A stretch of DNA of 64,000 bases from Rhodobiaceae bacterium. GTDB lineage: Bacteria > Pseudomonadota > Alphaproteobacteria > Parvibaculales > Parvibaculaceae. Below, piece by piece: positions 2,747 to 20,163 of the stretch. Each line of letters begins with the position of its first letter. Positions within the stretch are counted from its first letter, which is position 1. A model generated the notes under the pieces. That model had not been told where the DNA came from, did not search any database, and saw only the letters and a program-made list of their open reading frames with translations. The stretch is from assembly GCA_021404525.1 (NCBI GenBank), contig JAAWWE010000003.1:186001-250000 (forward strand), written 5' to 3'. Both the position numbers and the translations under genes were made by a program.

Positions 2747-2759
2747 AAGGAGCCCCTGC

Positions 2760-3722
2760 TTATCCCTGAACGATTTTGTTGGTTTGGGTGCCGAGGTCCA
2801 AGGCGCCGTCTTCGGTTGCAATGCGAGATTGAATGACGTCGCCAGGTCTCAGGAAGGCTGGGTTCTCCACATTTTTCTTGATGAAGATTCCCCACTTTTT
2901 TGCTTCTGGGATCAGTTTGGACATAAACATGAGCAATTTGCTTTTTGGGGCCTGCATGGCGACGCCGCCCGGCGTGCCGGTGGCGAGTAGGTCACCCTCT
3001 GCAAAGTCCTGAACACCGGAGAGTTCTGTCAGCGTCTCAGGTGGTTGGAAAAACAAATCATCGGCGAGGGCGTCCTGACGACCTTTACCGTTTACAAAAA
3101 GCTGTAGCCGCAGTTTCGGGAAATGCTTGACGTCTTCCTGATCAATGAGTGTGAGCCACGGACCTGTTGGGCCAAAGGTACGGTAGGATTTGCCTTTGTA
3201 GAACTGCCATTGGGGAAGCTGCACGTCGCGGGCAGAAATGTCGTTGTTGACCACGAGTGCTGCCACATAGTCGGCGAGGTTGTCCCAGGTGACCTGGACC
3301 GGTCCATCAATCTTCTTCCCAAACACGAGGCCGAGTTCAAGTTCGTAATCGAGCAGTTTTACATGTGCCGGCCGTATGACGTCTGTATTGGGTGGTGCAA
3401 TACAGGATGACGCTTTGCGGAAGATCATATTGAAGGTTTGGGTCTCCGGATCGACGCCACTTTCCACGAGATGAGAGACGTAGTTCGTTCCCTGGCAGAC
3501 ATATTGCTGGTTCTGTGTCACCGGGGAGAGCAATGCGACGTGGTCGAGGGGGATGTTATTTTCCGTGCCCGCGGCAGCGATGGTTCGCGCTTCTTCGCGA
3601 CCCTGTCGGATGAAGTCTCCAGTTGTCTCATAGGTGCCAACGAGCGGTGTTAGGCCTCCGTCAGCGACAACACCCCACCCGATATTTCCATTCAACTCGT
3701 AACGCGCAACATTGATTGCCAT
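2760..3722 (-). CDS. Fumarylacetoacetate hydrolase family protein
   Basis: 320 residues with the FAH catalytic fold. Metal ligands are visible in LLDYELELGLVFG (two Glu) and in VVNNDISARDVQ (Asp); an LATGTPGGV segment follows as in the family. In ring-fission pathways such enzymes hydrolyse or hydrate the acyl chain of the meta-cleavage product. It is the middle gene of the minus-strand operon, 34 bases after the dioxygenase and 14 bases before the monooxygenase. Assignment to hydrolase, hydratase or decarboxylase cannot be made from sequence alone. Confidence 0.85.
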   Translation of the reverse strand: MAINVARYELNGNIGWGVVADGGLTPLVGTYETTGDFIRQGREEARTIAAAGTENNIPLDHVALLSPVTQNQQYVCQGTNYVSHLVESGVDPETQTFNMIFRKASSCIAPPNTDVIRPAHVKLLDYELELGLVFGKKIDGPVQVTWDNLADYVAALVVNNDISARDVQLPQWQFYKGKSYRTFGPTGPWLTLIDQEDVKHFPKLRLQLFVNGKGRQDALADDLFFQPPETLTELSGVQDFAEGDLLATGTPGGVAMQAPKSKLLMFMSKLIPEAKKWGIFIKKNVENPAFLRPGDVIQSRIATEDGALDLGTQTNKIVQG

Positions 3723-3756
3723 GGTGCATTTCTCTTTTGTTTGAATATGAAGATCT

Positions 3757-4869
3757 TTAGAGCCAAGGCCGGGCTTTGCGACCGGTCATCGCCAACAACA
3801 GTTTCATTTTCTTGAGGGTGAAACTGGGGATTGTTCGCAGATTGTGGATAGTTTCTAGGATGAAGCCGAGACTGAGGTGCGGCTTTGTGAAGGTTGTGGG
3901 GAAGTCCTCGCCCCACTGATACAGACCTTGCGTGCTTAGTGGGTGATAGCCGGTTTCATATTCAGATGTGTAGACGTCACCATCTGCGTAGTGCTCAAAC
4001 TTAAAACCATCCTGATCTGACCAATAGTCAAAAACCTGACTGCCTAAGATGTGGCGCCCAATACCCCATTCATGTTTATGACCTTTTTGTTTTAACACCT
4101 GCTGTCCCAGGCCAACCGCATCCAGGTCGTATACCTCGAAGGCGGAATGCTCATATCCCTTGACCGGATAGGTGCCCAGCACGATGGAGTGATGGTCGGC
4201 GGGGTGTTCGCCGCGATCAAACCTGTTGAACGCAAGTGCTGGGGTCCCATCATCAAGACAAAGAACATCCGTTGAGATGAGGCCGAGACGTGTTTTGTAC
4301 CATTCCATTGACGTCTCGAAGTCAGGGGTCATTACGGCAACATGACCGAGCCTTGCAATGTCTGGTGGCGTTAGAGGTGCACGCTGGCCCTGATTGATGC
4401 GTACCTTTTCTTCAGGCGTGTTATGCGCCTGCGCCTTTCTCATGGGTTGTTGGATTTGCGGTGCACGGTTGAAGATTGCATCAACTGTAAAGCCGTTCGG
4501 GTCGGTCAGGCGAACTCGCTCGCCGCCACCTGGTCCTTCAACTGTATCTATGGTCACTCCGTCATGAGTGGCAAGAGCTTCGAGGTCATCATGGCTTTTC
4601 ATCTCGACACCCAGCCCCAGGTAAGCTGCTTTTGGAGCCTTTTCCACAACGATGAAATAGGGGCTTGAACCAGCGCCCCGGACATAGAGCCTGTCGGGTG
4701 TTTGCTCTGCGATCACAAACCCGAAGTCTTTGAAAAAGGCAGCTTGTTCTTCGAGGTCGGGTTTGCCAAAGCGAAGATATGCGATGTCCCATGCTTTGGT
4801 GATGGGCGACGCGATCCGGTCTACCCTGCGGGGGTCAACGGGAAGTGTTTCTTCCAGTGAGAAATCCAT
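3757..4869 (-). CDS. Extradiol ring-cleavage dioxygenase (two VOC domains)
   Basis: 370 residues made of two glyoxalase/VOC modules. The C-terminal module carries the 2-His-1-Glu iron facial triad: His in LGHVAVMTPDF, His in KHEWGIGRH, and Glu in FKFEHYADGD; the N-terminal module is structural. This is the pattern of type I extradiol enzymes such as 2,3-dihydroxybiphenyl or catechol 2,3-dioxygenases. It is the first gene of the operon with hydrolase and monooxygenase, so the pathway would be hydroxylation, meta-cleavage, then C-C or ester hydrolysis. The N-terminus is about 50 residues longer than many relatives, but no better start is obvious. Confidence 0.85.
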   Translation of the reverse strand: MDFSLEETLPVDPRRVDRIASPITKAWDIAYLRFGKPDLEEQAAFFKDFGFVIAEQTPDRLYVRGAGSSPYFIVVEKAPKAAYLGLGVEMKSHDDLEALATHDGVTIDTVEGPGGGERVRLTDPNGFTVDAIFNRAPQIQQPMRKAQAHNTPEEKVRINQGQRAPLTPPDIARLGHVAVMTPDFETSMEWYKTRLGLISTDVLCLDDGTPALAFNRFDRGEHPADHHSIVLGTYPVKGYEHSAFEVYDLDAVGLGQQVLKQKGHKHEWGIGRHILGSQVFDYWSDQDGFKFEHYADGDVYTSEYETGYHPLSTQGLYQWGEDFPTTFTKPHLSLGFILETIHNLRTIPSFTLKKMKLLLAMTGRKARPWL

Positions 4870-5845: not shown

Positions 5846-7054
5846 TCAGAAGTAGCGAGCAACCCTTAGCTGTACAAAGTCGTCGTCGACAAACGAGAAG
5901 GATGGGTCGGTCGCCTCTATGTTTCCAAAAAAGCGGCCCTCGAGCGAAACGAAATAGTCGTCGCCAAAACGTCGCTCTGCTTCGAGCGAAAGGCTTGTCG
6001 CCTGAGTATCCATGTCGATCACAGACGCAAGAAGTACGGCTGTTGATGCTTCGTCATTGGCGGTCCAGCGGAGCCCGGCGACTGCATCGTTCGCAAATGT
6101 ATTCGCCGCATTGGCGCCGCGGTCATCCCAGATATATTCAGCGACGATCCCCAAATCGTATGCCGTGTCGAAAATCTGGTAAAACGTATATTCGATGCCG
6201 CCAGTGGCTTGAATGCGTTCTTCGCCCAACTCACGGCGCCAGAAACCTTCAAATTTGTACAACCACGCATCCTTGGTCGCCTGTACATCAATCGAGGCTT
6301 GCTTGATCTGTGGATAAAGCGGGATGAGAACAGGGTTGCCTCCGGCATCTAGACCCGGAATGAGCACAGGGTCTCGTCCGGTGCCCTGGAAATAAGCCAC
6401 ACCCACATCCCAGTCTTCAAAGGTGTTTGAGTATCGGGTTGCAAAGTCCAGATGTTGGCGCTTGTCACTGCTGCCATACATGGTCTGGGTTTCATCGACC
6501 GGGATATCAAAGGAGGGGCGCCCGCTCATGCTGGGGAAGGTGCGCTCGCGGAAATAGGGGAGCAGGTAGAAATCGAAGATGCCGAAATCCTGGACGGTGG
6601 AGACGGCGACCATGGGTTGCCCCAGCTTCTCTTCTCCATCAAGGCTCTCGACTTGGTCTGTCTGGTTGATGATGTCGACCAGGTGAGCGACTTCGGTGAC
6701 GCCCCAGAAGACTTTGTCGATGCCAACCCGGAACTCCCAATCACCCGTTATGTAGGAGTATTTGAGTTCCCTAATATCAGCGTGTGTTCTGTTGCCATCA
6801 TTCTGGTCGAGTCTGGCAAATGGTTTGAAAACAACAAACTGATCGCCATTGTCCCAGAAGGCTTCTGCTGTCGCCTCAATGGCGACAGAGCTGTTGAAGC
6901 GTTTTTGTCCGGCGACATTCCCGCGGCTCGGGAATACTTGAAACTCAGGTTCGACATATCCTGTAAACTCAAAATCTGCCGCGATAGATGGCGCCGTCGT
7001 GACCAGGCCGCAGGAAATCACGCCGGCGACGCATGCTGTCTGTAGCTTCTTCAT
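5846..7054 (-). CDS. Outer-membrane beta-barrel protein of RND locus A
   Basis: 402 residues. A signal peptide ending in APSIAA is followed by an aromatic-rich, alternating-strand sequence and a C-terminal strand ending VARYF, the terminal Phe being typical for BAM-assembled barrels. A strong Shine-Dalgarno (GGGAGGGG) precedes the ATG. It lies downstream of the LolA-like and RND genes, a grouping seen for DUF1302-type and related porin-like proteins. It probably supplies the outer-membrane step of that system, but no substrate-specific motif is recognised. A terminator sits between it and the upstream gene. Confidence 0.7.
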   Translation of the reverse strand: MKKLQTACVAGVISCGLVTTAPSIAADFEFTGYVEPEFQVFPSRGNVAGQKRFNSSVAIEATAEAFWDNGDQFVVFKPFARLDQNDGNRTHADIRELKYSYITGDWEFRVGIDKVFWGVTEVAHLVDIINQTDQVESLDGEEKLGQPMVAVSTVQDFGIFDFYLLPYFRERTFPSMSGRPSFDIPVDETQTMYGSSDKRQHLDFATRYSNTFEDWDVGVAYFQGTGRDPVLIPGLDAGGNPVLIPLYPQIKQASIDVQATKDAWLYKFEGFWRRELGEERIQATGGIEYTFYQIFDTAYDLGIVAEYIWDDRGANAANTFANDAVAGLRWTANDEASTAVLLASVIDMDTQATSLSLEAERRFGDDYFVSLEGRFFGNIEATDPSFSFVDDDFVQLRVARYF

Positions 7055-7133: not shown

Positions 7134-8072
7134 TTACCGCGCACGTTTCAGTGCGTTGGTGGTGAAATCTGATTCCGTGAGACCAGCCTGGAAAACGAAA
7201 TCGCTCCAGACAAGGCGTGTGTTTTTCCCAGTCTGATGGTTTTCCATGAACAAATCGTGGGCACGCCAGTGTTTGCCCTCATAGAGCTGATAGTCAGTCA
7301 TTGTGAGGGTTTTCAGAAGCTGGTCTTTGCGGTCGTAATACTCGACTTTTCGTGGCTGATAGTCGGTTGTATCCGTCCAGGCGATCTGGCGTGTGTAGCC
7401 GGAGTGTTCGTAAAGCGGCGTTCGCTCTGACACATGGCATATGCGCTCGCCGCAGGGCTCATCGCGCAGCCAGTTGTAGGAGTATTTGCCGACTTCCTGA
7501 GCGGAGAAATCTTCGAACGCAAATTCAGATCCCATGAACGGGCCTGACTTATTAACCGAAGATATGCGTTTCACGCGCTTTACGGCTGGCAGGTACATCC
7601 ATTGATCATCGGGATCTAGGATACGAGCGTGGGACAGCAGAGCGGTGCCGTCTACGTCGCGGGGTTTGTCAAAAACGATCAAGCTCCAGTCACCCAGATT
7701 TTCCTCAGTAATCTCAAGCACCATATTGCGGAGTTCCCGCTCGCTTGTTTCGCCATAGGCGTTGGTGAGGATCATCTGCATGTTGGCTGATGTGTTGCCG
7801 AAGCCTATATCGCGGCGTTCTGTTTCCTGCGCAATGGCAAGGCCTCTTGCGGCAGGGTCCTCAGCGCCGGGGAGCGTATCAAGCCCTGCCAGCTCTTCTG
7901 CGATTGCTGTTGAAATGCCGACGGGCAAGATGACAAGCATGGCGGCAATGGCCCAAGCCAGGACCAGGTTATGTAGGTTCAGCGCGTTCATATGCATGGG
8001 CTGATTTTCCTCTTTCAAGTTTGTCGTGAGGCGCACGATAGGATTAGCGTCCAGGATTGAAAAGCGAGTCAT
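7134..8072 (-). CDS. Outer-membrane lipoprotein-sorting-type (LolA-like) periplasmic protein
   Basis: 312 residues from the ATG at 8072, which has a GGGAG ribosome site; a second start at 7997, also with a GAGG site, would place the signal sequence (LVLAWAIAAMLVILPVGIS) at the N-terminus. The mature part resembles the LolA-like family (PF17131) with YLPAVKRVKRISS, FMGSEFAFEDFS and KVEYYDRKDQLLKTL. Such proteins have a half-barrel that can hold acyl chains. It sits 14 bases after the RND gene, so a periplasmic lipid shuttle between RND pump and outer-membrane barrel is the natural inference. No lipobox is seen. Confidence 0.75.
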   Translation of the reverse strand: MTRFSILDANPIVRLTTNLKEENQPMHMNALNLHNLVLAWAIAAMLVILPVGISTAIAEELAGLDTLPGAEDPAARGLAIAQETERRDIGFGNTSANMQMILTNAYGETSERELRNMVLEITEENLGDWSLIVFDKPRDVDGTALLSHARILDPDDQWMYLPAVKRVKRISSVNKSGPFMGSEFAFEDFSAQEVGKYSYNWLRDEPCGERICHVSERTPLYEHSGYTRQIAWTDTTDYQPRKVEYYDRKDQLLKTLTMTDYQLYEGKHWRAHDLFMENHQTGKNTRLVWSDFVFQAGLTESDFTTNALKRAR

Positions 8073-8086
8073 GTTTTGATCTCCCT

Positions 8087-10444
8087 CTATGCAGGCGCTG
8101 GAGCATCTGCAGCGCCAGGATCCGCGTCTGCATCTGCTTGTTTGGTTTTATCCGACTTCCTCTTGCCGTCCAGAGCAATTAGCAGCGCTGGCAATAGCAG
8201 GAAGTCGATGATGAGGGCGCAGGCGACGGTGACCGCCACCATGGTGCCCAGCATCGCATTTACGCGGAACGGCGAGTAGGCGAGAAGCGCAAAGCCCACG
8301 ATCAGAACGAAGGTGGATACCCACAATGCGGTCCCAACAGTTGAGAAGGCGTAGCGCACAGCATCTTCTGCCGACTTGCCTTGTTCCGCCCGCGCTCTTT
8401 GATATTTGGACAGGAAGTGAACAGTCGCATCCACAATCAGCCCCAAAGCGGTGGCGATGACGAAGGTTGACCAGAAACCCACTTCAGTGCTGAACAGTGC
8501 CAGAACCCCAAATGCTGCGATGGGCGGTGTGAGGTTGGGCACCAGTGAAATGATCCCCAGCTTCAAGTCCCGCAGTGCCAGCATCAGACAGCCGGAAATG
8601 AGCAAGAGCGCGATGCCGGTTCCCACTGTCATGGCTTCAAAATTACTGATGCCGATGAAGGAGAACATAACAGCTTGGCCTGCTGGGTAGGCGTACATGG
8701 TCTCGGGGGCGTTTTCCCTTAGCCATGCTTCACCGCGATCGATAATGCCCTTCATCTCCTCAGTTGAGACGTCAGTCAGGGTAATGGTGAGTTTTGTTGC
8801 GGATTTGTCGACATTGATCTGGTCGTTCAAGTCCAGGCCATAGGGAAGCGACATTTCATAGAGCAGCAGGAACTGCGCGGCGCTCTGCCGGTCTTCCGGT
8901 ACGCGATAGTAGGCATCATCGTCACCATGCATGCTCTTATTCACGCGTTTGATGACATCAGAGAAAGTGGCTACGTGGACAACTTCTGGTTGCGCACGGA
9001 ACCAGTTGGCAAAAGCTTCCAGCCGTTCCAGATATTCTGGATCGGATATGCCGCCTGTATCGCCTGAATAGAGCGAGTAGCTGATCTGATAAATGCCTGT
9101 CAGATTGTCAGACGCCCAGTCACTTGCGACACGGAACTCCATGCGATCATCGAAATATTCCACGAACCGGTCGTTGAAGGTGAATTGCGGCAGAAGCGAC
9201 GCAAAGCCGATCAAAACCGCGGTCATGCCGACCAGGATTTTGCGACGGTTGCCGATGACCATTTCACCAAATTTCTCCATGAATTCGGATTGCTTGCTGA
9301 GCGACCCTTTCGCCGAGATTGGAAGGATCGACATGAGAGCCGGCAAGAAGGAGATGGAGAGGATCCATGCGACCAGCGCGCCAACGGCTGATGTGTTGCC
9401 CAGATCCCGGAAAGGCGGTGCGTCAGAGAAGTTCAAGCTTGCAAAGCCAATGGCCGTTGTCACGGATGTGAGAAACACTGGTTGGAAGTTTACCCGAAGA
9501 CTTTCAACAATGGCTTCGCGTTTGGCCATGCCTTTTTGCATGGAAACGAGGGCGGTGACCAATATGTGAATAGAGTCCGCGACGGCAACGGTCAGAATGA
9601 TGGTGGGCGCGCCGGAGGAGGGCGGCGTTAGCTTAATGCCCATCCACCCCATGACTAGGCCCATGGCCGCTGCTGCAGAGAGGCCAACCACGAAGAGCGT
9701 TGCGATGGTGCCGCTGATTGAGCGGATAAGGAACCATACGGTGAGCGCCAATACGACATACATGCCGGGGGTGAGTGTTTGCAGATCCCGTGTTGCTGCT
9801 TCAGAGAAGGACGTAGAGAGCATCACTGAGCCTGTAAGCTCAATGCGAAGGTCGGGAAAGCGCTCACGAATGTCTGCGACGATGGCTCGTGCGTGAGCCA
9901 CCGGTGCAGCTGTCGCCGTTACATCATCGCGGGGAATCTTGAGGGTCGCGAAGATCGCTGTTGTGGTTCCGTCGTCTGAGATGATCCGTTTGGCGATCGC
10001 CGGTTCGGTTGTACCAATACGAAGAACTTCGTCGGGATCAACTTCCTGTGGGTCGACCACAAGATCCCGTACCAACAAATCGTCCTCAAAGGCACGCGTG
10101 TGCTGGTAGTTTGTCAGGCTGTCTACACGGATAGAGTAGGGTGTTTGCCATGCCCGTTCGGTGATCTCTTTTATGATCTCCAGAATTTCCGGATCGGTGG
10201 CTTTGCCTTCGTTGGGCCGGAGAACCCACAGCAATGTGTCGGGGCTGGTATAGGTCCGTTCCAGCTGCTCGAATGCCTTCAAATTCGGATTTTCGTCGGT
10301 AAAGAAGTAGCGGTAGTCGTTCGAGAACTTGATGTATTGTCCTCCTGACGCCATTGCCATGGCGCCTGCGACGGTTACGAGAACAACAAGCCAACGCAGT
10401 TTGATAATCCAGTTTGCGTAGGTAGTGACCCATCCATTATTCAT
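8087..10444 (-). CDS. RND superfamily (MMPL-type) exporter, locus A
   Basis: 785 residues with the two-fold RND layout: TM1 near the N-terminus (LRWLVVLVTVAGAMAMASG), a large periplasmic loop starting at NDYRYFFTDENP, a bundle of TMs around residues 220-390, then a second copy of both. Family COG1033, close in architecture to hopanoid and sterol exporters such as HpnN and BstA. Its ATG overlaps the tetR stop by four bases (ATGA), so regulator and pump are co-transcribed and translationally coupled. Substrate unknown; a hydrophobic or lipid-like cargo is inferred from the LolA-like partner. The C-terminus is a low-complexity Ala/Asp/Pro tail. Confidence 0.85.
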   Translation of the reverse strand: MNNGWVTTYANWIIKLRWLVVLVTVAGAMAMASGGQYIKFSNDYRYFFTDENPNLKAFEQLERTYTSPDTLLWVLRPNEGKATDPEILEIIKEITERAWQTPYSIRVDSLTNYQHTRAFEDDLLVRDLVVDPQEVDPDEVLRIGTTEPAIAKRIISDDGTTTAIFATLKIPRDDVTATAAPVAHARAIVADIRERFPDLRIELTGSVMLSTSFSEAATRDLQTLTPGMYVVLALTVWFLIRSISGTIATLFVVGLSAAAAMGLVMGWMGIKLTPPSSGAPTIILTVAVADSIHILVTALVSMQKGMAKREAIVESLRVNFQPVFLTSVTTAIGFASLNFSDAPPFRDLGNTSAVGALVAWILSISFLPALMSILPISAKGSLSKQSEFMEKFGEMVIGNRRKILVGMTAVLIGFASLLPQFTFNDRFVEYFDDRMEFRVASDWASDNLTGIYQISYSLYSGDTGGISDPEYLERLEAFANWFRAQPEVVHVATFSDVIKRVNKSMHGDDDAYYRVPEDRQSAAQFLLLYEMSLPYGLDLNDQINVDKSATKLTITLTDVSTEEMKGIIDRGEAWLRENAPETMYAYPAGQAVMFSFIGISNFEAMTVGTGIALLLISGCLMLALRDLKLGIISLVPNLTPPIAAFGVLALFSTEVGFWSTFVIATALGLIVDATVHFLSKYQRARAEQGKSAEDAVRYAFSTVGTALWVSTFVLIVGFALLAYSPFRVNAMLGTMVAVTVACALIIDFLLLPALLIALDGKRKSDKTKQADADADPGAADAPAPA

Positions 10445-11127
10445 GATGCAAGTCCTTCTTTGGGACCAGACTGACTGTTGTCAGTGGTCCGCAGACTGTT
10501 GAGGTACTGATAAAAAGCTTCAAAACTGAGGCCCCCCACGTCGGTGCTTTGAGCTGTTTTAATCAGCCCAACCGTTCCTTGGTGGGTGGCAATGATCATT
10601 GTTGCGGCGGCGTCAGGCGATATGTCGTCGCGCACCTGCCCTTTTGTCTGGCCAATGTGCAGCGCATCAGCGATGGCGGTCCGCCATCCGGCATGTACAC
10701 CGTTGAGGTAGGTGCGGAAATCTTCGTCGAGTCCTGACATCTCCTGGCTTAGATTTTGAAGGGGGCAGCCAAGCCGAACGTCCGAGAAGATCTCGCCATC
10801 GACATGCTTCTGAAGAATTCCGAGTAGGGTGTCGATCGGGTTGTCAGCCTCAGCCAATGGCTGCAGCCAATTGGTCTCCATAAATCGGTCGATATTGTCG
10901 ACAATGGCGGCAAGGCCGAGAGCATGTTTGTCGGGGAAATGGTGATAGAGAGAGCCTTTGGTGCAACCAGCAGCTTTCAAGATGTCGGTGAGGCTTGCGG
11001 CACGATACCCGTGATGATGAATTTCATCAAAAGCAGCTTCCAGCAGTGCCTGACGGGTGCGTTCGCCGCGTATTTGGCGCGCATCCTCGCTTTTTTCAGC
11101 TGGATTTGTCTTTGGTCCCTGTGCCAT
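10441..11127 (-). CDS. TetR family regulator of RND locus A
   Basis: 228 residues with an N-terminal HTH (about residues 20-65, ending GCTKGSLYHHFPDKHALG) and a TetR_C-type domain resembling AcuR/NemR repressors, including a Cys in LGCPLQNLSQEMS where that group often has a conserved Cys. First gene of the operon tetR-RND-LolA-like-barrel, overlapping the RND gene by four bases. A dyad 19-32 bases upstream of its start is a good autoregulatory operator. Effector unknown. Confidence 0.85.
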   Translation of the reverse strand: MAQGPKTNPAEKSEDARQIRGERTRQALLEAAFDEIHHHGYRAASLTDILKAAGCTKGSLYHHFPDKHALGLAAIVDNIDRFMETNWLQPLAEADNPIDTLLGILQKHVDGEIFSDVRLGCPLQNLSQEMSGLDEDFRTYLNGVHAGWRTAIADALHIGQTKGQVRDDISPDAAATMIIATHQGTVGLIKTAQSTDVGGLSFEAFYQYLNSLRTTDNSQSGPKEGLAS

Positions 11128-11145
11128 AGCCCCTCATTTTCACAA

Positions 11146-11159
11146 ACCGACCGGTTGGT
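11146..11159 (-). promoter_or_regulatory. Candidate TetR operator upstream of the RND-A operon
   Basis: ACCGACCGGTTGGT is a 14-bp dyad with one imperfect pair, centred on CCGG, like operators of NemR/AcuR-type repressors. It is 18 bases from the tetR start, where it would cover a promoter. The rest of 11160-11359, up to the stop of the radical SAM gene, holds nothing I can name. Confidence 0.55.
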
Positions 11160-11359
11160 CTAGTATCTAGGTGCCCCTCACGGGAACGTCAAGAGGCCGT
11201 GTTCAAAAATGACTGGAACAAAAACTCGCTGTTTTTGGTGTCCTGAGTATTTCGGCAGGATTTCCGATTGTGACGGCGCTTGTCGGCTTGCACGCTGGCC
11301 GATTTGCGTCCGCCAAAACCCTATTCTGCTTGGTCTTTAAGAAATACGCTGGGCCAAGG

Positions 11360-12421
11360 TCAGCGGATCACCTGTTTTCTGCCTGAGCGGCGTTTTTCAG
11401 CCAACTCGCGGATGACCGGTTCCATGACTTCTTCGTGGAACTTGTCACATCCGATGCAAAGATTGGCAAAGGGCGTTCCGTCCGGCAGCTCAGTATGGGA
11501 GGCCTGGTGGAACTTCTCCTCTGACCAACCCTGAGTGAGACCCATTCTGTCTGGCGCACCCTCGTTCAAGGCCTCAAATATTGGGTGGCCCTTCAGACTC
11601 TCCAATATGTCGATAAGGGGCTCATCCGCTACGTTGCCAATCGGGACCTTTGTTTTAAGGCAGCAGGGAAAGACCGACCCATCCGGCTCAATAGCAACTT
11701 CGGAACCGGCCATTCCGTGATTGAGGAAATTGCGACCCCCTGAATGGCGGGCGCAGAAATTTGTGTCCATATCGGCTTTGCTTAAAGAGTTCTCCCATGC
11801 GCGTCCGCGCGGCCAAAGCTCTCCAATCCATTGATCGGGCTGCGCGCCAAAGAAGAAATAGAATGGTCCTTCTTCAGTTAGGTGATCTCGGCCGGTTGAC
11901 GCATCAGGGACGGGTTGCATTCCGGCCGCTTCAAACATGTCGGTCAGCTTCTCCATCAGTGGCAGGCGCTTGTCACCCTCCATTCCGACATGGAAGTCAT
12001 CCATTCCTGCAATGGCCACCATCCAGACATTGCGGTCCAGCATTTCTTCCAGGATTTTTGGTGTCACGAGATCACCAGTTGTCTGAATGGAGATATTGAC
12101 GCCACCCTTGCCATATTTTGCGTTCAGCGCGTCGAGGGCGGGGTAGAAAATCCGTTCGCGGACGGGATCAATCAGAACTTCTCCGCCGGCAAGAATGATG
12201 CGCCCTATGCGTTGTTCCGGTTTTCCATCTGGGGTCAGATTTTTTGGATCCTGGTAGATCATCGTGCTGGGCAGATTGGCGATCACGCGCTCAAAATGCA
12301 TATCGCTTTCCACCAGCACGTCCTCAAGGGCATCGCGCACATAGGGACGAAACCGTGTGTCGTAACAGTGCTTGCACCGACGGTGGCAGGCCCAAGTCAG
12401 GACATAGTAAATCGATTCCAT
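11360..12421 (-). CDS. Radical SAM/SPASM-type protein of unknown substrate
   Basis: 353 residues. The radical SAM cluster motif C12-x3-C16-x2-C19 is followed by the AGGE motif at 78-81. A C-terminal SPASM-like auxiliary cluster region is indicated by C223, C253, C254, C322 and C325 (the CC pair in VFPCCLKTK, the CxxC in LCIGC). SPASM enzymes modify peptides or other bulky substrates, or act in cofactor synthesis. It is last in the minus-strand set RND, small membrane protein, TauD oxygenase, rSAM, 84 bases after tauD. No obvious precursor-peptide ORF is present in the flanking gaps. Function unknown; a tailoring role for whatever the adjacent RND pump handles is inference. Confidence 0.8.
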   Translation of the reverse strand: MESIYYVLTWACHRRCKHCYDTRFRPYVRDALEDVLVESDMHFERVIANLPSTMIYQDPKNLTPDGKPEQRIGRIILAGGEVLIDPVRERIFYPALDALNAKYGKGGVNISIQTTGDLVTPKILEEMLDRNVWMVAIAGMDDFHVGMEGDKRLPLMEKLTDMFEAAGMQPVPDASTGRDHLTEEGPFYFFFGAQPDQWIGELWPRGRAWENSLSKADMDTNFCARHSGGRNFLNHGMAGSEVAIEPDGSVFPCCLKTKVPIGNVADEPLIDILESLKGHPIFEALNEGAPDRMGLTQGWSEEKFHQASHTELPDGTPFANLCIGCDKFHEEVMEPVIRELAEKRRSGRKQVIR

Positions 12422-12505
12422 TGGTGCTGGCTCCTCAGGTGATCTCCAAGGTTGAGCCTAGCGTTGCCTGGCGCTGTGTCTCTTCACAAATGCGCGAGAG
12501 GCCCC

Positions 12506-13351
12506 TTAGTGCGGTCTGTCACCATTGATAGTGACCCGGCGCATATGTCGCCGCTGGCCATGATAGTCATTCAACGCGAAGTGCTGAACCGCGCGATTGT
12601 CCCAGAAAGCCACCGCACCCGGTGTCCAGCGGAAGCGACAGGTGAACTGTTCCTGTGTGCAGTGGTCGAACAAGAAATTCAGAAGTGGGCGGCTTTCCCG
12701 ACGGGTCATGTTCTTAAAATACATGGTGAAGGCCATGTTCACATAAAGCGCTTTGCGCCCGGTTTCCGGGTGTGTTCGAACGACTGGGTGTTCGAATTTC
12801 GGCACATCGTCATTCGCATTGTCTATGTCCATTGACGACCGCTTCATCGCTGAGTTCCCACCTTGGCCATATTCACGCTCAGCAGTGTGAATGGCGACCA
12901 TGCCGTCCAGCATTTCTTTCATGCCATCGGAGAGCGCTTCATAGGCCTTGTATTGGCTGGCAAAAAGGGTGTCGCCGCCAAAAGAGGGTACTTCAATGGA
13001 GTGGAGGATGGAGCCCAGAGCGGGTTCTTCTAGGAACGACATGTCGGAATGCCAACCGCCGCCAAAATTCACTTTGTCTTCAGGCTCTTTGATGATTTCC
13101 ATCACTTCTGGATGGTCGGCCATGCCCTTCACATAAGGATGAACGTTTAGCGAGCCGAACCTGCGCCCAAAGGCGGTGTGCTTTTCAGGGGAAAGGTCCT
13201 GGTCGCGAAAGAAAATAACCTGGTGGTCCAAAAACGCCTGATGAATGTCGTCAAAAGTCTCGTTGTCGAGATCAGCGTTAAGATCAGCGCCTGATATCTC
13301 TGCTCCCAGTGCCCCGGAGACGGGCTGAACGTCGATGTTTTTGTAGCTCAT
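12506..13351 (-). CDS. TauD/TfdA family 2-oxoglutarate-dependent dioxygenase
   Basis: 281 residues from the ATG at 13351, which overlaps the upstream stop as TAATG; the longer frame to 13420 lies inside the upstream gene. Fe(II) ligands are HxD in GGWHSDMSF and the distal His in NRAVQHFALNDY; the Arg cluster RRHMRRV binds 2-oxoglutarate. Residues 1-100 match the family start (PVSGALGAEISGADL). The family hydroxylates small organic acids, sulfonates and secondary metabolites. Context is translational coupling to a membrane protein and a downstream radical SAM enzyme, so a tailoring role is as likely as nutrient scavenging. Confidence 0.85.
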   Translation of the reverse strand: MSYKNIDVQPVSGALGAEISGADLNADLDNETFDDIHQAFLDHQVIFFRDQDLSPEKHTAFGRRFGSLNVHPYVKGMADHPEVMEIIKEPEDKVNFGGGWHSDMSFLEEPALGSILHSIEVPSFGGDTLFASQYKAYEALSDGMKEMLDGMVAIHTAEREYGQGGNSAMKRSSMDIDNANDDVPKFEHPVVRTHPETGRKALYVNMAFTMYFKNMTRRESRPLLNFLFDHCTQEQFTCRFRWTPGAVAFWDNRAVQHFALNDYHGQRRHMRRVTINGDRPH

Positions 13352-13845
13352 TATTCGCTCCCAATAGCCGGAGTTGCGTTGTTGCGGTTCCTCAGCTCTT
13401 CGCCGAAAGAATTCTCCCACATTTCTGGGGACGTGGGATCAAGTCCTGCCGCATCTGCCAATGCTCCGATAAAGGTACTGGCTTCAACAAAAAAGATAAC
13501 CACAAGCGCAAGCAGGCCAATGTTGAAAATGACCGCTCTGATCTGATTGATCCTGTAGTTTGGCCAGGAGGTGAAAGCTCGCAGCATCATGCCGGAATAA
13601 CCTGCAATAGGGGTGATCAGCATGGAATAGATAAAGGCTAGGCCAATTGAGGCCATCGCTGGAAACAGATGTTCGTAGGGCACATTGGGCTCTCCCCAGC
13701 TTTCTCCTAAAAAGTGCATGCCTGTCACAAGGGAGAAACCCAAAACGATCTGGATGCCCCGCTCCATCTGTGTCCAGAGAGGGTGTGACGGGCTGATGTC
13801 AAACGGCCGAAGCGTTTCGTCCTGCTGCTTGCTTTCATCGATCAT
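13351..13845 (-). CDS. Small integral membrane protein, unknown
   Basis: 164 residues with three or so hydrophobic segments: about residues 28-48 (GIQIVLGFSLVTGMHFLG), 62-90 (MASIGLAFIYSMLITPIAG) and 103-130 (AVIFNIGLLALVVIFFVEA). Soluble acidic tails lie at both ends. No family recognised. It lies 47 bases downstream of the RND-B gene and is coupled (TAATG) to the TauD oxygenase, so it is probably an accessory subunit or membrane anchor of that set. Confidence 0.7.
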   Translation of the reverse strand: MIDESKQQDETLRPFDISPSHPLWTQMERGIQIVLGFSLVTGMHFLGESWGEPNVPYEHLFPAMASIGLAFIYSMLITPIAGYSGMMLRAFTSWPNYRINQIRAVIFNIGLLALVVIFFVEASTFIGALADAAGLDPTSPEMWENSFGEELRNRNNATPAIGSE

Positions 13846-13892
13846 CAGAATTCCTTTGCCTCTATCTCACCGCTATCCACAAATAGCATACC

Positions 13893-16241
13893 TTATTCTT
13901 GCAAGGACGCGACCCTGCTGCGCGGTACAAAACGGTCGAGTGTTACCGCAAAGGCTGGAAGCGCAAAGATCGCCGAGACCATGTTGGCCATAAACATGAA
14001 AGCGAGCAATATGCCCATATCAGCCTGAAGCTTCAGGCTGGATGAAGCCCATGTTGCAACACCTCCGGCAAGCGTGAGTGCGGTAAACACGACCGCAACG
14101 CCGATCTGTTCGAGCGCTAGTGTATAGGCTTCCTGGAGCGATTTGCCCTGATCTAGGAAGATGTTCAATCGACTGTAGATGTAGAACGCATAGTCCACGC
14201 CGATCCCGGTCGCCAGAACCAGGACGGGCAAGGTTGACACCTTGAGGCCGATGCCAAGCCAGGTCATGAACCAGTAGCCCAGGAAAGTCGCAAGGAGCAG
14301 AGGCATGCAGCAGCAAATAACGGCACGCCAATCTCTGTACGCGATGAGCACCAGAAAGATGATGGCGATGTATACCCAGAGAAGCATTGGGAGTTCAGAG
14401 TTTTCAATCACTTCGTTGGTTGCGGCCATCACCCCGACGCCACCCATACCAAGCCGGATATTGATATCATCGCGAGCGGCAAGGGCTTGATCGGTTGCAA
14501 CAAAAGTCTCAACCGCGTCAATAACCCGATCAATCGTTGTTGCGATATGATCGTCCATGTAAACGATCACCGGTAGAATGGTGCATGTCTCGTTGAGCAA
14601 TCCTGAACTAGGTTCGACGTGTGATGTTGTGCGAATGAGATCTGATTGGGATCGGGGCAGATCTTGCCATTTCAAGTTTCCTTCACGCCAGATGGCGGAA
14701 ACGGATCGCGCAGAGACGGACAGTGATTGTACTGAGGTGACGCCCGGCACATTGTCCATATGGGACGAAAAGCTGTCGACCAAACGCATGGTAGGATAGT
14801 CGACACAACCATCGACTGGTGTCTCTACCACAATGATGAGCGCATCTACGGAGATTGAGAAATCGTCCACCACTGAAGCTGTGTCTACATTGTACCTTGA
14901 GCTTGGCCAAAGCTCTGAGAAGCCGGGGACAAGATCTCCAATGTGGCGTTCGCGAGTCTGATAAATGGCGGTTCCAAGGAGAACCGTAAATGCGAGCAGA
15001 ACCAGTGAGGCGTTATGCGGCTTTGCAACGCGGGCCACAAATCTCATGGCAGCTTCGCGACGAACACGAACACGTTGATAGGTGAACGCGTAGGTCGGGT
15101 TCGCGGGCAGATAGCTTGCGAGCAGAGGTAGCATGATGAGGTTGGTGATGATTTTAAGGGCGACACCTAATGACGCCATGATGGCGAGTTCTCGGATGAC
15201 GTCGATGGGGATGAGATAGAGTGTGAAGAAGCCGACAAGGTCGGTCACGAGCGCCATGCTGCCAGGTACCAGCAACCTGGTGAAAGTGAGTTTGGCCGCG
15301 TCCATTGATGAAGCGCCGTCACTGACTTCGGAGGCAATCAGATTGATCTGTTGGACGCCATGGCTCACACCGATGGCGTACACCAGAAAAGGTACCAGAA
15401 CTGCCAACGGGTCGAGTCCGAACCCCATAATGTTAAGCAAGCCGAATTGCCAGACGACAGAGATCAGTGAGCAGAAGATTGCCAAGAAGGCGAGCCATGC
15501 AGAGCGGATATAGGCATAGACGGCAAGGCCAGTTAGCAAGAAAGCGTAGCCAAAATAGAGGAATACATCACCAGCACCATCTGCCAGGTCCCCGACAAAC
15601 TTTGCGAAGCCAATAATCTCAATACGGACGTCATCTGATTGGAACGGGGTGCGCACCTGTGCTTCGAGGCGGGATGCGAGATCGAGATAATCGAGACGTT
15701 CTCGGGTAAGCGGGTCTATCTCTTGAAGCTCGGCGATCACCAATGCGCCGGTATTGTCGTTGGCGAACAGCGTACCCTGGTGACCGCCATTCATCGCGCG
15801 GTCGCGGATGCTCTCAATGTCGTCGGGTGAGAGCGCATCTGGAGTAATTCTGCTTGGAATAACCTGTTGAGACTCAATGCCGTATTCCGTGTTCTCGGTG
15901 ACGCGAGTTGTCGAAGCCCACAAGGAGCGTACCTTGGTGCGCCGCACACCAGGGAGGAAGGTAATTTCTTCTGTCACGGCATGTAGCGTCTTCAGGAAAT
16001 CTGGTTGCCAAATGTCCCCACTCTCCGTGCGGACAGCGACGAGCACGAGATTGGCGCCGGGCACCTCGTCTTGGTACTCGAAGAAGGTCTGGATATAGGG
16101 ATGTTCCGTAGGGACCTGTTTGAAAAACCCGGCATCCATACGGAGTTGGGTCGCATAGATAGCCATGGCAATCGTAAACGCCCCAAGGGCTAGCAGGATG
16201 ATCAATCGCAGTTTGAACACTGCTAACTCAACAAATTTCAC
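13893..16241 (-). CDS. RND superfamily (MMPL-type) exporter, locus B
   Basis: 782 residues, same two-fold RND plan as the locus A pump: TM1 (LRLIILLALGAFTIAMAIYA), periplasmic domain from MDAGFFKQVPTEHPYIQTF, a TM bundle around residues 220-380, then a repeat ending with VVFTALTLAGGVATWASSS. The proteins are clearly divergent, so this is not a recent duplication. It starts divergently from the DUF1329 gene across a 152-bp gap and heads the row small membrane protein, TauD, radical SAM. RND pumps of this class next to DUF1329 or LolA-like proteins are thought to move lipids or other hydrophobic molecules. Confidence 0.85.
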   Translation of the reverse strand: MKFVELAVFKLRLIILLALGAFTIAMAIYATQLRMDAGFFKQVPTEHPYIQTFFEYQDEVPGANLVLVAVRTESGDIWQPDFLKTLHAVTEEITFLPGVRRTKVRSLWASTTRVTENTEYGIESQQVIPSRITPDALSPDDIESIRDRAMNGGHQGTLFANDNTGALVIAELQEIDPLTRERLDYLDLASRLEAQVRTPFQSDDVRIEIIGFAKFVGDLADGAGDVFLYFGYAFLLTGLAVYAYIRSAWLAFLAIFCSLISVVWQFGLLNIMGFGLDPLAVLVPFLVYAIGVSHGVQQINLIASEVSDGASSMDAAKLTFTRLLVPGSMALVTDLVGFFTLYLIPIDVIRELAIMASLGVALKIITNLIMLPLLASYLPANPTYAFTYQRVRVRREAAMRFVARVAKPHNASLVLLAFTVLLGTAIYQTRERHIGDLVPGFSELWPSSRYNVDTASVVDDFSISVDALIIVVETPVDGCVDYPTMRLVDSFSSHMDNVPGVTSVQSLSVSARSVSAIWREGNLKWQDLPRSQSDLIRTTSHVEPSSGLLNETCTILPVIVYMDDHIATTIDRVIDAVETFVATDQALAARDDINIRLGMGGVGVMAATNEVIENSELPMLLWVYIAIIFLVLIAYRDWRAVICCCMPLLLATFLGYWFMTWLGIGLKVSTLPVLVLATGIGVDYAFYIYSRLNIFLDQGKSLQEAYTLALEQIGVAVVFTALTLAGGVATWASSSLKLQADMGILLAFMFMANMVSAIFALPAFAVTLDRFVPRSRVASLQE

Positions 16242-16393
16242 TCCATCCCCCCCAAGTACACCCTTTGATGCCGGGTGCGCGCAGCTGCCTCAGATCGCAT
16301 GTTTTGTCAGCCGACCAATTTGTGACTGGTCAAGGCCTGTGCTCTGAGGCACTCTTAGTAAACCACATTTATCTGTTTTGGGGGGAGAGTGTT

Positions 16394-17767
16394 GTGAGGA
16401 TTTTGAGTGTTTCGTTGGCGGCGGGTCTTTATTGGTCTGGCGTTGCGGTTGCCGGTGTGTCGCAATCCGAAGCTGACAGACTGGGGCAGGACCTGACGCC
16501 CATCGGTGCTGAGCGGGCCGGAAACGCTGACGGATCTATCCCGACGTGGGATGGCGGACTTACCCAGGTCCCTGATGGTGTGACGTTCACTGGTGGCCAT
16601 TACCCAGATCCATTTTCGACTGATGAGCCGTTAACAACGATTACAGCCGCCAATGCAGATGAACATGCCGCGCTCCTGACAGACGGTCAGCGTGCAATGC
16701 TCAATCTGTATCCAAGCTACAAGATGGACGTCTACGAAACCCGGAGAACCTGCGCGTTTCCGGATTCTGTTTATGAAGCGACCCGCCTGAATGCGATGAA
16801 TGGCAGTATTTCAGATGATGGTTTGAAGCTCTCCGGTGTTGCGCTTGGTGTGCCGTTCCCCATGCCGACCAGTGGTGTTGAGTTGGTCTGGAACCATAAT
16901 TTGCGTTTCCGTGGTCACAAGGTTCGCCGCACCTTTGCTTCAGCTGCGCCATCGCGTGGTGGGTCATTCACGCCCATTCGCATTCAGGATGAGTTGGTGT
17001 TCTCCTACGCAGATCCTACAATCGGCTCGATTGATGACCTGGATAATGTCTCGTTGCGCTACCTGCAGGAAACGCTGAGCCCCGCACGCAGGGCCGGCCA
17101 ATTCCTGCTGGTTCACGAGACGATTGATCCAAGCGTCGCTGAGCGGATTTCGTGGCAATACACTGTTGGCAGATCGGATTCACGGCCGAATGTGCAACGG
17201 ACAACAGCGGTTTCTTATGACAATCCCCAGATTTATTCCGATGCGATGTCGACTGCCGACAATTTTGACATGTATTCAGGTCCTCCGGATCGATATGACT
17301 GGACGCTGCATGGCAAAGAGGAAAAATACATTGCGTATAATTCCTATCGCCTGAGCTCTCCAACGCTTGCCTATTCAGACATCGTGTTGGCAGGCCATTT
17401 GAATCAAGACCACGTTCGCTATGAGCGTCACCGTGTCTGGGCGGTTGAAGCGGTGCTGAAACCGTCAGCCCGTCATATCTATTCACGGCGCATGAACTAT
17501 TTTGATGAAGACAGTTGGAATCTGGCGTCGAGCAATCTCTATGACGCCCGCGGTGGGCTATGGCGGGTACAGGAAGCCCACCTCATGCAGTATTATGATG
17601 TGCCCACCTGCTTCAATGCATCTGACGTTGTTTATGATCTGATCGAAGGGCGATATGTCGTTCAGAATTTGAAGAACGAAGAGCCTGGTATCGAATTCAG
17701 TGCGACTGATCTAGATGAAAGTCAGTTTGTCCCGCAGGGTCTGCGTCAGCGCATCATGCGCCGGTAG
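16394..17767 (+). CDS. DUF1329 family secreted protein
   Basis: 457 residues from the GTG at 16394, preceded by GGGGGGAGAG; the longer frame to 16265 is unlikely because this start puts the signal peptide (LSVSLAAGLYWSGVAVAG) at the N-terminus. The DUF1329 signature is clear: SQSEADRLGQDLTPIGAERA and IPTWDGGL near the start, then an LolA/LolB-like half-barrel with NHNLRFRGHKVRR and RRMNYFDEDSWNL. It is divergent from RND-B. The 152-bp gap holds GACCA (16313-16317) and TGGTC (16327-16331) half-sites but no confident promoter. The predicted role is a periplasmic or outer-membrane carrier for the RND substrate. Confidence 0.85.
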   Translation: MRILSVSLAAGLYWSGVAVAGVSQSEADRLGQDLTPIGAERAGNADGSIPTWDGGLTQVPDGVTFTGGHYPDPFSTDEPLTTITAANADEHAALLTDGQRAMLNLYPSYKMDVYETRRTCAFPDSVYEATRLNAMNGSISDDGLKLSGVALGVPFPMPTSGVELVWNHNLRFRGHKVRRTFASAAPSRGGSFTPIRIQDELVFSYADPTIGSIDDLDNVSLRYLQETLSPARRAGQFLLVHETIDPSVAERISWQYTVGRSDSRPNVQRTTAVSYDNPQIYSDAMSTADNFDMYSGPPDRYDWTLHGKEEKYIAYNSYRLSSPTLAYSDIVLAGHLNQDHVRYERHRVWAVEAVLKPSARHIYSRRMNYFDEDSWNLASSNLYDARGGLWRVQEAHLMQYYDVPTCFNASDVVYDLIEGRYVVQNLKNEEPGIEFSATDLDESQFVPQGLRQRIMRR

Positions 17768-17787: not shown

Positions 17788-17824
17788 AGAGGCCGTCTGG
17801 CGATCCAGACGGCCTCTTTTTTTA
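17788..17824 (+). terminator. Rho-independent terminator of the DUF1329 gene
   Basis: AGAGGCCGTCTGG (17788-17800) and CCAGACGGCCTCT (17805-17817) form a perfect 13-bp stem with a CGAT loop, followed by T residues. The T-tract runs into the stop codon of the convergent thiolase gene. Confidence 0.9.
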
Positions 17825-18964
17825 GGGCGCTTCGTTGGAAAAGATGATCGTGCCGGAAGCGCCGAACATGCCGCCGACACCGTGGGAGACCGAGATCTTG
17901 GCTCCATCCACCTGCGCCGGGGCTTGTCCGCGCATTTGGCGCACGCTCTCCTGGAGCGCATACATGCCGTACATGCCGGAGTGCATGTAAGAGAGTCCGC
18001 CACCATTGGTGTTGAGGGGCAGTTTACCACCAGGTGCCGTATTGCGCTCCCAAATGAAGTCGGCGGCCTCTCCGGGTTTACAGAAACCCAGATCCTCCAG
18101 ACCATAAAGTGGCAGGTGAGCGAAGGCATCGTAGATCATCAGATGGTCGACATCATTGTGGGTGATGCCCGCTTCAGCAAAGGCCTGTGTCCCTGAGACC
18201 CGGAAAGCCTTGGAGGACGTAAAATCCTCCATTTGGCTGATCATCGGGGTTTCGACACTTTCTCCAGTGCCGAGAATATAGACGGGTTTTTGCGGCATAT
18301 CCTTTGCGCGATCGGCGCTTGTGAGGATGAGGGCGCCACCACCGTCCGTGACGAGGCAACACATGAGCAGCCGGAACGGGTAGGCGATCATGCGGCTGTT
18401 CAGAACATCATCGACGGTGATGGGGTCTTTGAAGCTTGCGCGCGGGTTCATCGCGGCCCATTCCCGCTGAACCACTGCGACATTGGCGAGCTGTTCTTCA
18501 GTCACTCCGCGGTCCTTCATGTAGCGAAGGACGGGAATGGTGAACATGGTTGGCGGATTGGTGACGCCATAGGGAAGCTCGAACTGGCCCTGTAGGCTCT
18601 GCGGCGAACGGGCAAAGCGCCTGGCGCCGACGCGGCTCCGACCGGACTCCGCATGGGTAATGAGAACGGTGGAGCAGAGGCCCTCATTGATGGCTGCTGC
18701 CGCATGGCGAACATGCAGCATGAAGGAGCAGCCGCCGACGCTCGTTCCGTCCACCCACTTGGGCGTGATGCCGAGATAGTGGGCAGTTTCGGTCGGGCTT
18801 TCTCCGGCTGTGGCTACACCGTCTATGTCAGAGGGTTTTAGGCCTGCATCTGCCATGGCATTGAGTGCCGCGTCCGCGTGAAGCGCGATTTGCGACACGT
18901 CCGGGATCTTGCCGAGTTCAGTGGTTTCTGCAGCGCCGACAATTGCGATTGATTTCTGTTTCAT
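17822..18964 (-). CDS. Thiolase family protein (SCP2/lipid-transfer type acetyl-CoA acetyltransferase)
   Basis: 380 residues. The thiolase fold is evident: VGAAETTELGK at the N-terminus, the nucleophilic Cys79 in GTSVGGCSFMLHV, and the C-terminal GGGLSYMHSGMYG and VSHGVGGMFG segments. These non-classical thiolases act on sterol side-chain or other branched acyl-CoAs and commonly need a DUF35 partner, which is the gene directly upstream (three bases apart). Probably the C-C cleaving step of a side-chain or long-chain degradation pathway; an aldolase-type reaction is possible. Confidence 0.85.
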   Translation of the reverse strand: MKQKSIAIVGAAETTELGKIPDVSQIALHADAALNAMADAGLKPSDIDGVATAGESPTETAHYLGITPKWVDGTSVGGCSFMLHVRHAAAAINEGLCSTVLITHAESGRSRVGARRFARSPQSLQGQFELPYGVTNPPTMFTIPVLRYMKDRGVTEEQLANVAVVQREWAAMNPRASFKDPITVDDVLNSRMIAYPFRLLMCCLVTDGGGALILTSADRAKDMPQKPVYILGTGESVETPMISQMEDFTSSKAFRVSGTQAFAEAGITHNDVDHLMIYDAFAHLPLYGLEDLGFCKPGEAADFIWERNTAPGGKLPLNTNGGGLSYMHSGMYGMYALQESVRQMRGQAPAQVDGAKISVSHGVGGMFGASGTIIFSNEAP

Positions 18965-18967
18965 GCC

Positions 18968-19381
18968 TCACACTCCTGCCGGTTTGAATTTCGGCAAGCT
19001 GATCGTCTCGCTCGCTTTCTCGAAGGTGACTTCCAAGGGCATATCCAGCTCCAGTGCCTCTGGAGTTTGGGGACAATCGACAATATTGGTCATCATGCGC
19101 GGTCCTTCGGCGAGCTCTACCACGGCAATGGAATGGGGTTCGTCGCCAAAGTCGGGTCGCGGGCGATGATTGATGACGTAGGAGTAAAGTTTTGCTTTGC
19201 CGCTGGCTTTCTGCACGGTCACTTTGCGCGACCCGCAGGCGGGGCAGAAGGGGCGCGGCGGGAAATAGGTTTTTGAGCAGTCGTCGCAGGACTGCAGGCG
19301 CAATTCGCCTGCGCGGCATCCCTCCCAAAAATGTTCGGTCTCCGGTGTTGGTTCTGGCAACGGGCGTTTGAAGTCGGCCAT
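18968..19381 (-). CDS. Zn-ribbon/OB-fold DUF35 protein, thiolase partner
   Basis: 137 residues from the ATG at 19381 (AGGGAG site upstream); the longer frame to 19597 has no support. The rubredoxin-like zinc ribbon CDDCSKTYFPPRPFCPACG (four Cys) is followed by an OB-fold. DUF35 proteins form complexes with SCP2-type thiolases and are needed for their activity or CoA-ester handling. It directly precedes the thiolase, consistent with a two-subunit enzyme. Confidence 0.9.
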   Translation of the reverse strand: MADFKRPLPEPTPETEHFWEGCRAGELRLQSCDDCSKTYFPPRPFCPACGSRKVTVQKASGKAKLYSYVINHRPRPDFGDEPHSIAVVELAEGPRMMTNIVDCPQTPEALELDMPLEVTFEKASETISLPKFKPAGV

Positions 19382-19500
19382 ATCACTGCTCCCTGATGTC
19401 CTGGTTCTTGTTGGCGGGAGCATAGCTGGCAGGGGGTGTTTGGCAAACAGGCAAGCAACACGATGTGTCGTACTGCTGCCAGATGCAGAGTGTCGCTGCG

Positions 19501-20163
19501 TTACCTGAAAAAAGCGAACGAAGACAAAGGCTCGCGTTCGGCGACCAGTGTGTTTACCGGAGCGGCTTCGTCTGCATAGCCGAGAGACATGCCGCAAACC
19601 ACATATTCACTCTCTGGGATGTCGAGAATGTCTTTGGTGACTTTCCAAAATTGGTTCCAGGCACCCTGCGCGCAAGTGTCGAGACCTCTTGCGGTGGCCG
19701 AGAGCATGAGCGTTTGCATAAACATGCCGATGTCGAGCCAGCTTGTGCGATCCAGATCCTTGTCGATGGTGAAGATGAGGCCGACAGGCGCGTCAAAGAA
19801 TTTGTAATTGCGGCCCCACTGGTTCCAGTTGGCTTGTTTGTCTCCTTTGGGGATTTCGAGCAGCGTATACATGTCTTTGCCGAGCTTGCGCATTCGGGAA
19901 ATGTAGGGCTCGATGCGTTTGCTGTTTGATGCCCATTCCTTGCCACCATCTTCGGGATTGACCTCTCGGTACGCCAGAAGCTCCTCTGATAGGCGGTCAC
20001 GTGTGTCGCCCATAGCGACATAGACCTTCCACGGTTGCACATTGGTGCCAGAGGGCGAACGCGCCGCCCGTTGCAGCAGTTCCTCGATAAGTTCTTTTGG
20101 TACAGGCGTATCTTTGAACGCACGCGCTGAGCGTCGCGTGTCGAGTGCAATATCAAGATCCAT
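19501..20163 (-). CDS. Nitroreductase family flavoprotein
   Basis: 220 residues. FMN-binding features of the family are visible: TRRSARAFKDTPVP and ARSPSGTNVQPWKVYV near the N-terminus, and the C-terminal GMSLGYADEAAPVN. Reduces nitro-aromatics or quinone-like acceptors with NAD(P)H in characterised members. Upstream of the start (GGGGTGG ribosome site) is a short hairpin. It stands alone between the thiolase pair and the unknown membrane protein. Confidence 0.85.
   Translation of the reverse strand: MDLDIALDTRRSARAFKDTPVPKELIEELLQRAARSPSGTNVQPWKVYVAMGDTRDRLSEELLAYREVNPEDGGKEWASNSKRIEPYISRMRKLGKDMYTLLEIPKGDKQANWNQWGRNYKFFDAPVGLIFTIDKDLDRTSWLDIGMFMQTLMLSATARGLDTCAQGAWNQFWKVTKDILDIPESEYVVCGMSLGYADEAAPVNTLVAEREPLSSFAFFR

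Follow-up and report, generated by a model that had tools for sequence, protein, structure and literature searches.

The stretch of DNA considered here, called the window in the following, comprises 64,000 nucleotides of contig JAAWWE010000003.1 (positions 186,001 to 250,000) from the Parvibaculaceae member Rhodobiaceae bacterium, the genome of which amounts to 4.16 Mb in 67 contigs. It contains a group of five genes at 11360–17767, four of which lie on the minus strand and are transcribed in the order RND transporter, membrane protein with three transmembrane segments (three-TM), TauD-type oxygenase, and radical S-adenosylmethionine (SAM) enzyme, with a DUF1329 gene running divergently on the plus strand. 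The RND/MMPL transporter (13893–16241, 782 amino acids) is HAE3-like, with 57 bits to MMPL and with TIGR00921 as its best model at 140 bits, below the cut-off of 351.9. The three-TM protein (13351–13845, 164 amino acids) has no Pfam or NCBIfam match. The next gene encodes a TauD/TfdA-family Fe(II)/2-oxoglutarate dioxygenase (12506–13351, 281 amino acids; PF02668, 253 bits), and the overlap of the two genes in TAATG is exact, with the TAA of the former at 13353–13351 and the ATG of the latter starting at 13351. The radical SAM/SPASM protein (11360–12421, 353 amino acids) scores 29.2 bits both for Pfam SPASM (cut-off 21.5) and for Radical_SAM (cut-off 29.5). For the secreted DUF1329 protein, which is of the LolA superfamily and AmeB-like (PF07044, 435 bits), the listed start, a TTG at 16265, lies too far upstream. 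The most likely true start is the GTG at 16394, to which both the signal peptide and the ribosome-binding site GGGGGGAGAG point; this gives a gene of 16394–17767 and a gap of ca 150 bp to the divergent RND gene. These gene identities, positions and strands, as well as the TAATG coupling, agree with what a first-pass annotation of the locus had reported.

Within the genus, the ratio of nonsynonymous to synonymous substitution rates (dN/dS) is 0.02–0.03 for the radical SAM gene, 0.01–0.02 for TauD and 0.03–0.04 for RND, and it is higher, 0.06–0.13, for the three-TM gene. Because these low values reflect purifying selection, the five genes can be regarded as real and not as chance open reading frames (ORFs). 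In GC-rich relatives (L034, L040, L042 and others), long antisense frames over the radical SAM and TauD genes mislead naive gene calling.

The five genes do not have the same distribution. Among 40 Parvibaculaceae genomes, to which all family counts below refer, TauD orthologues (at least 72% identity) are present in 37, while the radical SAM gene is present in 19. The loci lacking it (L132–L149) have the same cluster, in which TauD is directly followed by TetR or LolA_like. When its presence is mapped onto the tree of TauD, the radical SAM gene requires at least 5 changes on supported branches, and 7 in the tree as drawn; in this count a genome that is divided between two contigs (L097/L098) was scored as lacking the gene, so the true number of changes may be slightly lower. 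Leaving out loci with too little flank, RND and DUF1329 stand beside TauD in 12/18 loci with the radical SAM gene and in 6/14 without it, with no dependence seen (Fisher p=0.28), and they are lacking in ca 14 of the 32 loci altogether. No plasmid match was found that would indicate carriage of the radical SAM gene on a plasmid. The radical SAM gene of the window is optional and separate from the pump/oxygenase cluster.

Outside the family, the radical SAM gene has a different and much more regular partner. A single scan across species genomes brought up 51 relatives, and extra alphaproteobacterial ones were added from a further sample. In 40 of the 50 non-family loci, from Alpha- and Gammaproteobacteria, Bacteroidota and Acidobacteriota, a gene for YnjB lies downstream on the same strand, within 200 bp in 36 cases, and YnjC and YnjD usually come after it; two of the remaining ten loci (L070, L077) reach a contig edge at the radical SAM gene. 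The identity of YnjB is firm (NF008633, 499 bits, cut-off 203). RND/DUF1329 neighbours, on the other hand, are found in 0/50 of these loci. The condition that the first-pass annotation had named as refuting its proposal thus holds for the radical SAM orthologues, most of which have no RND/DUF1329 neighbours. Of 289 sampled alphaproteobacterial genomes, 16 have the radical SAM gene and 55 have YnjB, and among the 284 that are not of the family, YnjB is present in 8/13 genomes with the radical SAM gene vs 47/271 without it (p=7e-4, where related genomes are not independent).

The genes upstream of the radical SAM gene differ between lineages, with the malonate transporter MadLM and an acyl-CoA synthetase in Gammaproteobacteria and an SbtA-like transporter in Bacteroidota, and YnjBCD is therefore the sole partner that recurs across them. 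L048 and L059, like about 20 further loci of Gammaproteobacteria, have the order MadL-MadM-acyl-CoA synthetase-(lipocalin)-radical SAM-YnjB-YnjC-YnjD in one orientation, which suggests a malonate-linked operon. In some alphaproteobacteria (L127, L128, L069, L049, L044, L122) the radical SAM gene lies near TIGR04282/TIGR04283 'arsenosugar' glycosyltransferases, together with genes for a kinase-like protein, a MerA-like flavoprotein, TVP38 and a CDP-alcohol phosphotransferase. An arsenosugar link was set aside as no more than a lead, as it concerns a minority of loci and as some such genes stand beside YnjBCD where the radical SAM gene is missing (L183, L193). We found no solved YnjB relative that could name the ligand.

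In Parvibaculaceae, YnjB scores above the cut-off in 0/40 genomes, the one of the window included, and the radical SAM gene of the window is followed by TetR-RND2 and not by YnjB, YnjC or YnjD. The family enzymes form a single clade (support 96/95), and their neighbours in the tree are two alphaproteobacterial sequences from genomes that also lack YnjB. The simplest reading is that the importer was lost before or at the entry of the radical SAM gene into Parvibaculaceae; this is no proof, and the rooting of the tree is arbitrary.

The radical SAM enzyme itself is highly conserved. Across 37 sequences from the same four groups the mean column identity is 66%, the start MESIYY is near-invariant, and eight cysteines are invariant: C12, C16 and C19, which make up the CX3CX2C motif of the SAM cluster, and C223, C253, C254, C322 and C325, which together with the SPASM score above the cut-off indicate a C-terminal auxiliary-cluster domain. 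The predicted model (pLDDT 87.5, the confidence score of the prediction) has a partial TIM-barrel fold like that of EpeE and BtrN, with a likeness over nearly the full length to both (Z 16.3 and 14.5, respectively). No NCBIfam model comes near its cut-off, and a profile search of the PDB sequences returned chance troponin matches only. The enzyme belongs to a sharply bounded, strictly conserved family that has no name in Pfam or NCBIfam. An assignment to the viperins, and with it a role in defence, was rejected, since the likeness is limited to the N-terminal part (PADLOC pVip, 24.9 bits, residues 4–130) and the viperin model NF038283 gives 22.3 against a cut-off of 180.

The cluster in which the gene sits in Parvibaculaceae has a conserved order: nitroreductase, DUF35, SCP2-thiolase, [DUF1329 divergent, RND], GST/three-TM (GST, glutathione S-transferase), TauD, [radical SAM], [TetR, RND2], LolA_like, and a 402-amino-acid barrel protein, where the square brackets denote variable parts. 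In the window, the first three are found on the minus strand as a nitroreductase-family protein (19501–20163; PF00881, 122.7 bits), a DUF35/ChsH2-type OB-fold partner of the thiolase (18968–19597; PF01796 and PF12172; start over-extended) and an SCP2/Ltp2-type thiolase (17822–18964; PF22691, 199 bits). The three-TM gene occupies the slot that GST has in sister genera (GST in L086, L088–L096). On the other side of the radical SAM gene, also on the minus strand, come the TetR regulator (10441–11127; PF00440), the second MMPL-family RND transporter, RND2 (8087–10444; PF03176, 130 bits), the LolA_like periplasmic protein of lipoprotein-sorting type (7134–8072; PF17131, 197 bits) and the secreted 402-amino-acid protein (5846–7054). 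The latter ends in R-Y-F, with the C-terminal Phe kept in 11 relatives, and its model is beta-rich at low confidence (pLDDT 53); it is probably an outer-membrane beta barrel. TetR has its own promoter with the palindrome ACCAACCGGTCGGTTTGT in the upstream region (11128–11200), which is conserved in L132, and the palindrome likely serves autoregulation by TetR of a TetR-RND2-LolA_like-barrel operon. In several genus members (L029:11099-12209, also L080, L081 and L084), a YeeE/YedE pair, a TsuA-like thiosulfate/selenium transporter, lies on the opposite strand between the radical SAM and TetR genes; it is absent from the window.

Genes of degradation type are found on both sides of the cluster, an acyl-CoA dehydrogenase on one side and a flavin adenine dinucleotide (FAD) monooxygenase, an FAA hydrolase and a glyoxalase-fold protein on the other. 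The latter three are consecutive in the window (1178–4869) and resemble a ring-cleavage pathway. Judged from its gene families (SCP2-thiolase/DUF35, acyl-CoA dehydrogenase, nitroreductase, GST), the neighbourhood of the cluster is degradative.

The solved proteins nearest to the TauD-type protein are (R)-phenoxypropionate (RdpA) and taurine dioxygenases, to which it is equally close over the whole length, with E ~1e-74 for each, and it is under the NCBIfam cut-off for taurine dioxygenase (289.7 vs 313 bits). Aligned with a Pseudomonas TauD, the protein keeps the residues that correspond to His70 and Arg270 of the E. coli enzyme, which we take to be those of the sulfonate side, while the residues that correspond to Tyr73 and Asn95, presumably those of the amine side, are replaced. 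An anionic substrate that has no amino group would therefore be expected, and taurine itself appears unlikely.

Considered together, these results are best explained by two overlapping units, to which we assign a probability of roughly 0.6: an oxidation/efflux cluster found throughout Parvibaculaceae, and an optional radical SAM gene for a small, usually imported metabolite, which here stands behind TauD in the absence of its importer. The locus would thus not be one of biosynthesis and export. What speaks for the two units is the gene content, the optional presence, the YnjBCD linkage, the conserved cysteines and the predicted fold. As to substrates, reaction and direction of transport, we infer the following scenario. 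The family cluster most likely oxidises an amphiphilic anionic compound and degrades it via coenzyme A (CoA) intermediates, and the HAE3-type pump with its periplasmic DUF1329 partner most likely keeps the inner membrane free of this compound or of intermediates derived from it, a role that AmeABCD has for monoterpenes. In the radical SAM enzyme, SAM would be cleaved at the [4Fe-4S] cluster of C12, C16 and C19, and the 5'-deoxyadenosyl radical would take a hydrogen from the small metabolite. An auxiliary cluster, for which four of the five candidate ligands C223, C253, C254, C322 and C325 would be used, could then accept the electron in a BtrN-like oxidation. Since an auxiliary cluster needs at most four of the five, one cysteine would be left free, and it would suit the role of an EpeE-like hydrogen donor; alternatively, this spare cysteine may give the hydrogen back in an epimerisation. 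The metabolite would be imported in the genomes with YnjBCD, and in Parvibaculaceae it would be made inside the cell or enter by another route.

Of the other explanations considered, the one that survives best, although we regard it as unlikely, is that the radical SAM enzyme has been recruited into the metabolism of TauD in Parvibaculaceae, where it would act on the product or substrate of TauD, and that in other bacteria its substrate is a related compound brought in by YnjBCD. The order TauD-radical SAM is fixed throughout the family, the family enzymes form one clade, and the constraint on the gene is strong. However, about half of the genomes keep TauD where the radical SAM gene is missing, and inheritance alone can hold an inserted gene in its place behind a conserved one.

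Less probable still is the proposal of the first-pass annotation that TauD and the radical SAM enzyme act one after the other in tailoring an envelope molecule, for which RND would be the exporter and DUF1329 (and the LolA_like protein and outer-membrane barrel) the carrier. Export-type proteins do flank both sides, TauD and the radical SAM gene are adjacent in 17/18 family loci, and RND with DUF1329 is alongside in 12 of the 18. But about half of the family lacks the radical SAM gene in an otherwise same cluster, no dependence of the pump pair on it is seen, its relatives elsewhere pair with an importer, and there is no biosynthetic core gene among the degradative neighbours. A literature search gave nothing useful that links radical SAM/SPASM enzymes with TauD and RND.

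Finally, that the enzyme is a maturase of ribosomally synthesized and post-translationally modified peptides (RiPPs) is very improbable: the peptide epimerase EpeE is the top structural match and there are weak NCBIfam matches to the maturases DynA, YhhB and StsB, but every named maturase model is far below its cut-off, the partners are solute importers and not peptidases or exporters, and the short precursor peptide sought beside the gene did not turn up, as the adjoining spacers (12422–12505 and 11128–11359) have no short ORF in common with the corresponding spacers of four genus members.

Several points weigh against the two-unit explanation. The adjacency of TauD and the radical SAM gene could be a real functional link inside Parvibaculaceae, and the catabolic character of the cluster is read from family names. 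Viperin-like enzymes also score well structurally (Z 13). Furthermore, 47/55 of the alphaproteobacterial genomes with YnjB have no radical SAM gene, so that the importer does not need the enzyme, and our literature search gave nothing useful on what YnjBCD does, and no paper on its substrate beyond one polyamine-type annotation.

In the two-unit explanation, an optional enzyme is set apart from a recurring efflux/degradation cluster of a kind already known, and a biosynthesis hypothesis that lacked support falls away. The analysis also brings to light a radical SAM family that is strictly conserved and nameless and whose transporter partner is fixed. The pairing outside the window is the part worth pursuing. 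With some hesitation, we propose that it represents an undescribed module of Alpha- and Gammaproteobacteria, Bacteroidota and Acidobacteriota, in which YnjBCD would import a small solute and a dedicated radical SAM/SPASM enzyme, encoded upstream, would transform it, Parvibaculaceae having kept the enzyme behind TauD and not the importer. If true, this would for the first time place the orphan YnjBCD transporter in a biochemical context. The pairing offers an experimental handle on both, as the ligand of YnjB is probably the substrate of the enzyme.

It remains to compare the locus with known systems. The YnjBCD ABC importer, known from E. coli, is the transporter that partners the radical SAM gene outside Parvibaculaceae; the family of the window has no YnjB above the cut-off, and in E. 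coli no such radical SAM gene is known to adjoin ynjBCD. With TauD and RdpA, the oxygenase of the window shares a relationship over the whole length, and it differs in the replaced counterparts of Tyr73 and Asn95 and in its score below the cut-off. EpeE and BtrN, which have one auxiliary cluster each, share with the radical SAM enzyme the CX3CX2C motif, a SPASM/twitch-type C-terminal part and, along almost all of the chain, the predicted fold, but the identity is ca 14–16%, and the window enzyme has five invariant extra cysteines and other gene partners.

The closest parallel to the exporter is AmeABCD of Castellaniella defragrans, in which apolar monoterpene efflux is carried out by an HAE3 RND protein, DUF1329, DUF1302 and AmeC, and whose AmeD/AmeB pair (RND and DUF1329) shields the monoterpene degrader from its own substrate (PMC6394551). 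Like it, the window has an RND gene, HAE3-like at a score below the model's cut-off, with a secreted DUF1329 (AmeB) gene adjoining and a gene set of degradation type; unlike it, the two genes are divergent, and no DUF1302 (AmeA) match was found among the scanned window genes. DUF1302 genes are present on other contigs of the genome, and at G000:C59:114138-121421 one of them precedes a tandem array of three DUF1329 genes, which makes a fuller Ame-like set than that of the window. Although the first-pass annotation knew of no described system with this gene set, RND paired with DUF1329 makes up one half of a known type, AmeABCD, and the exporter part is not new.

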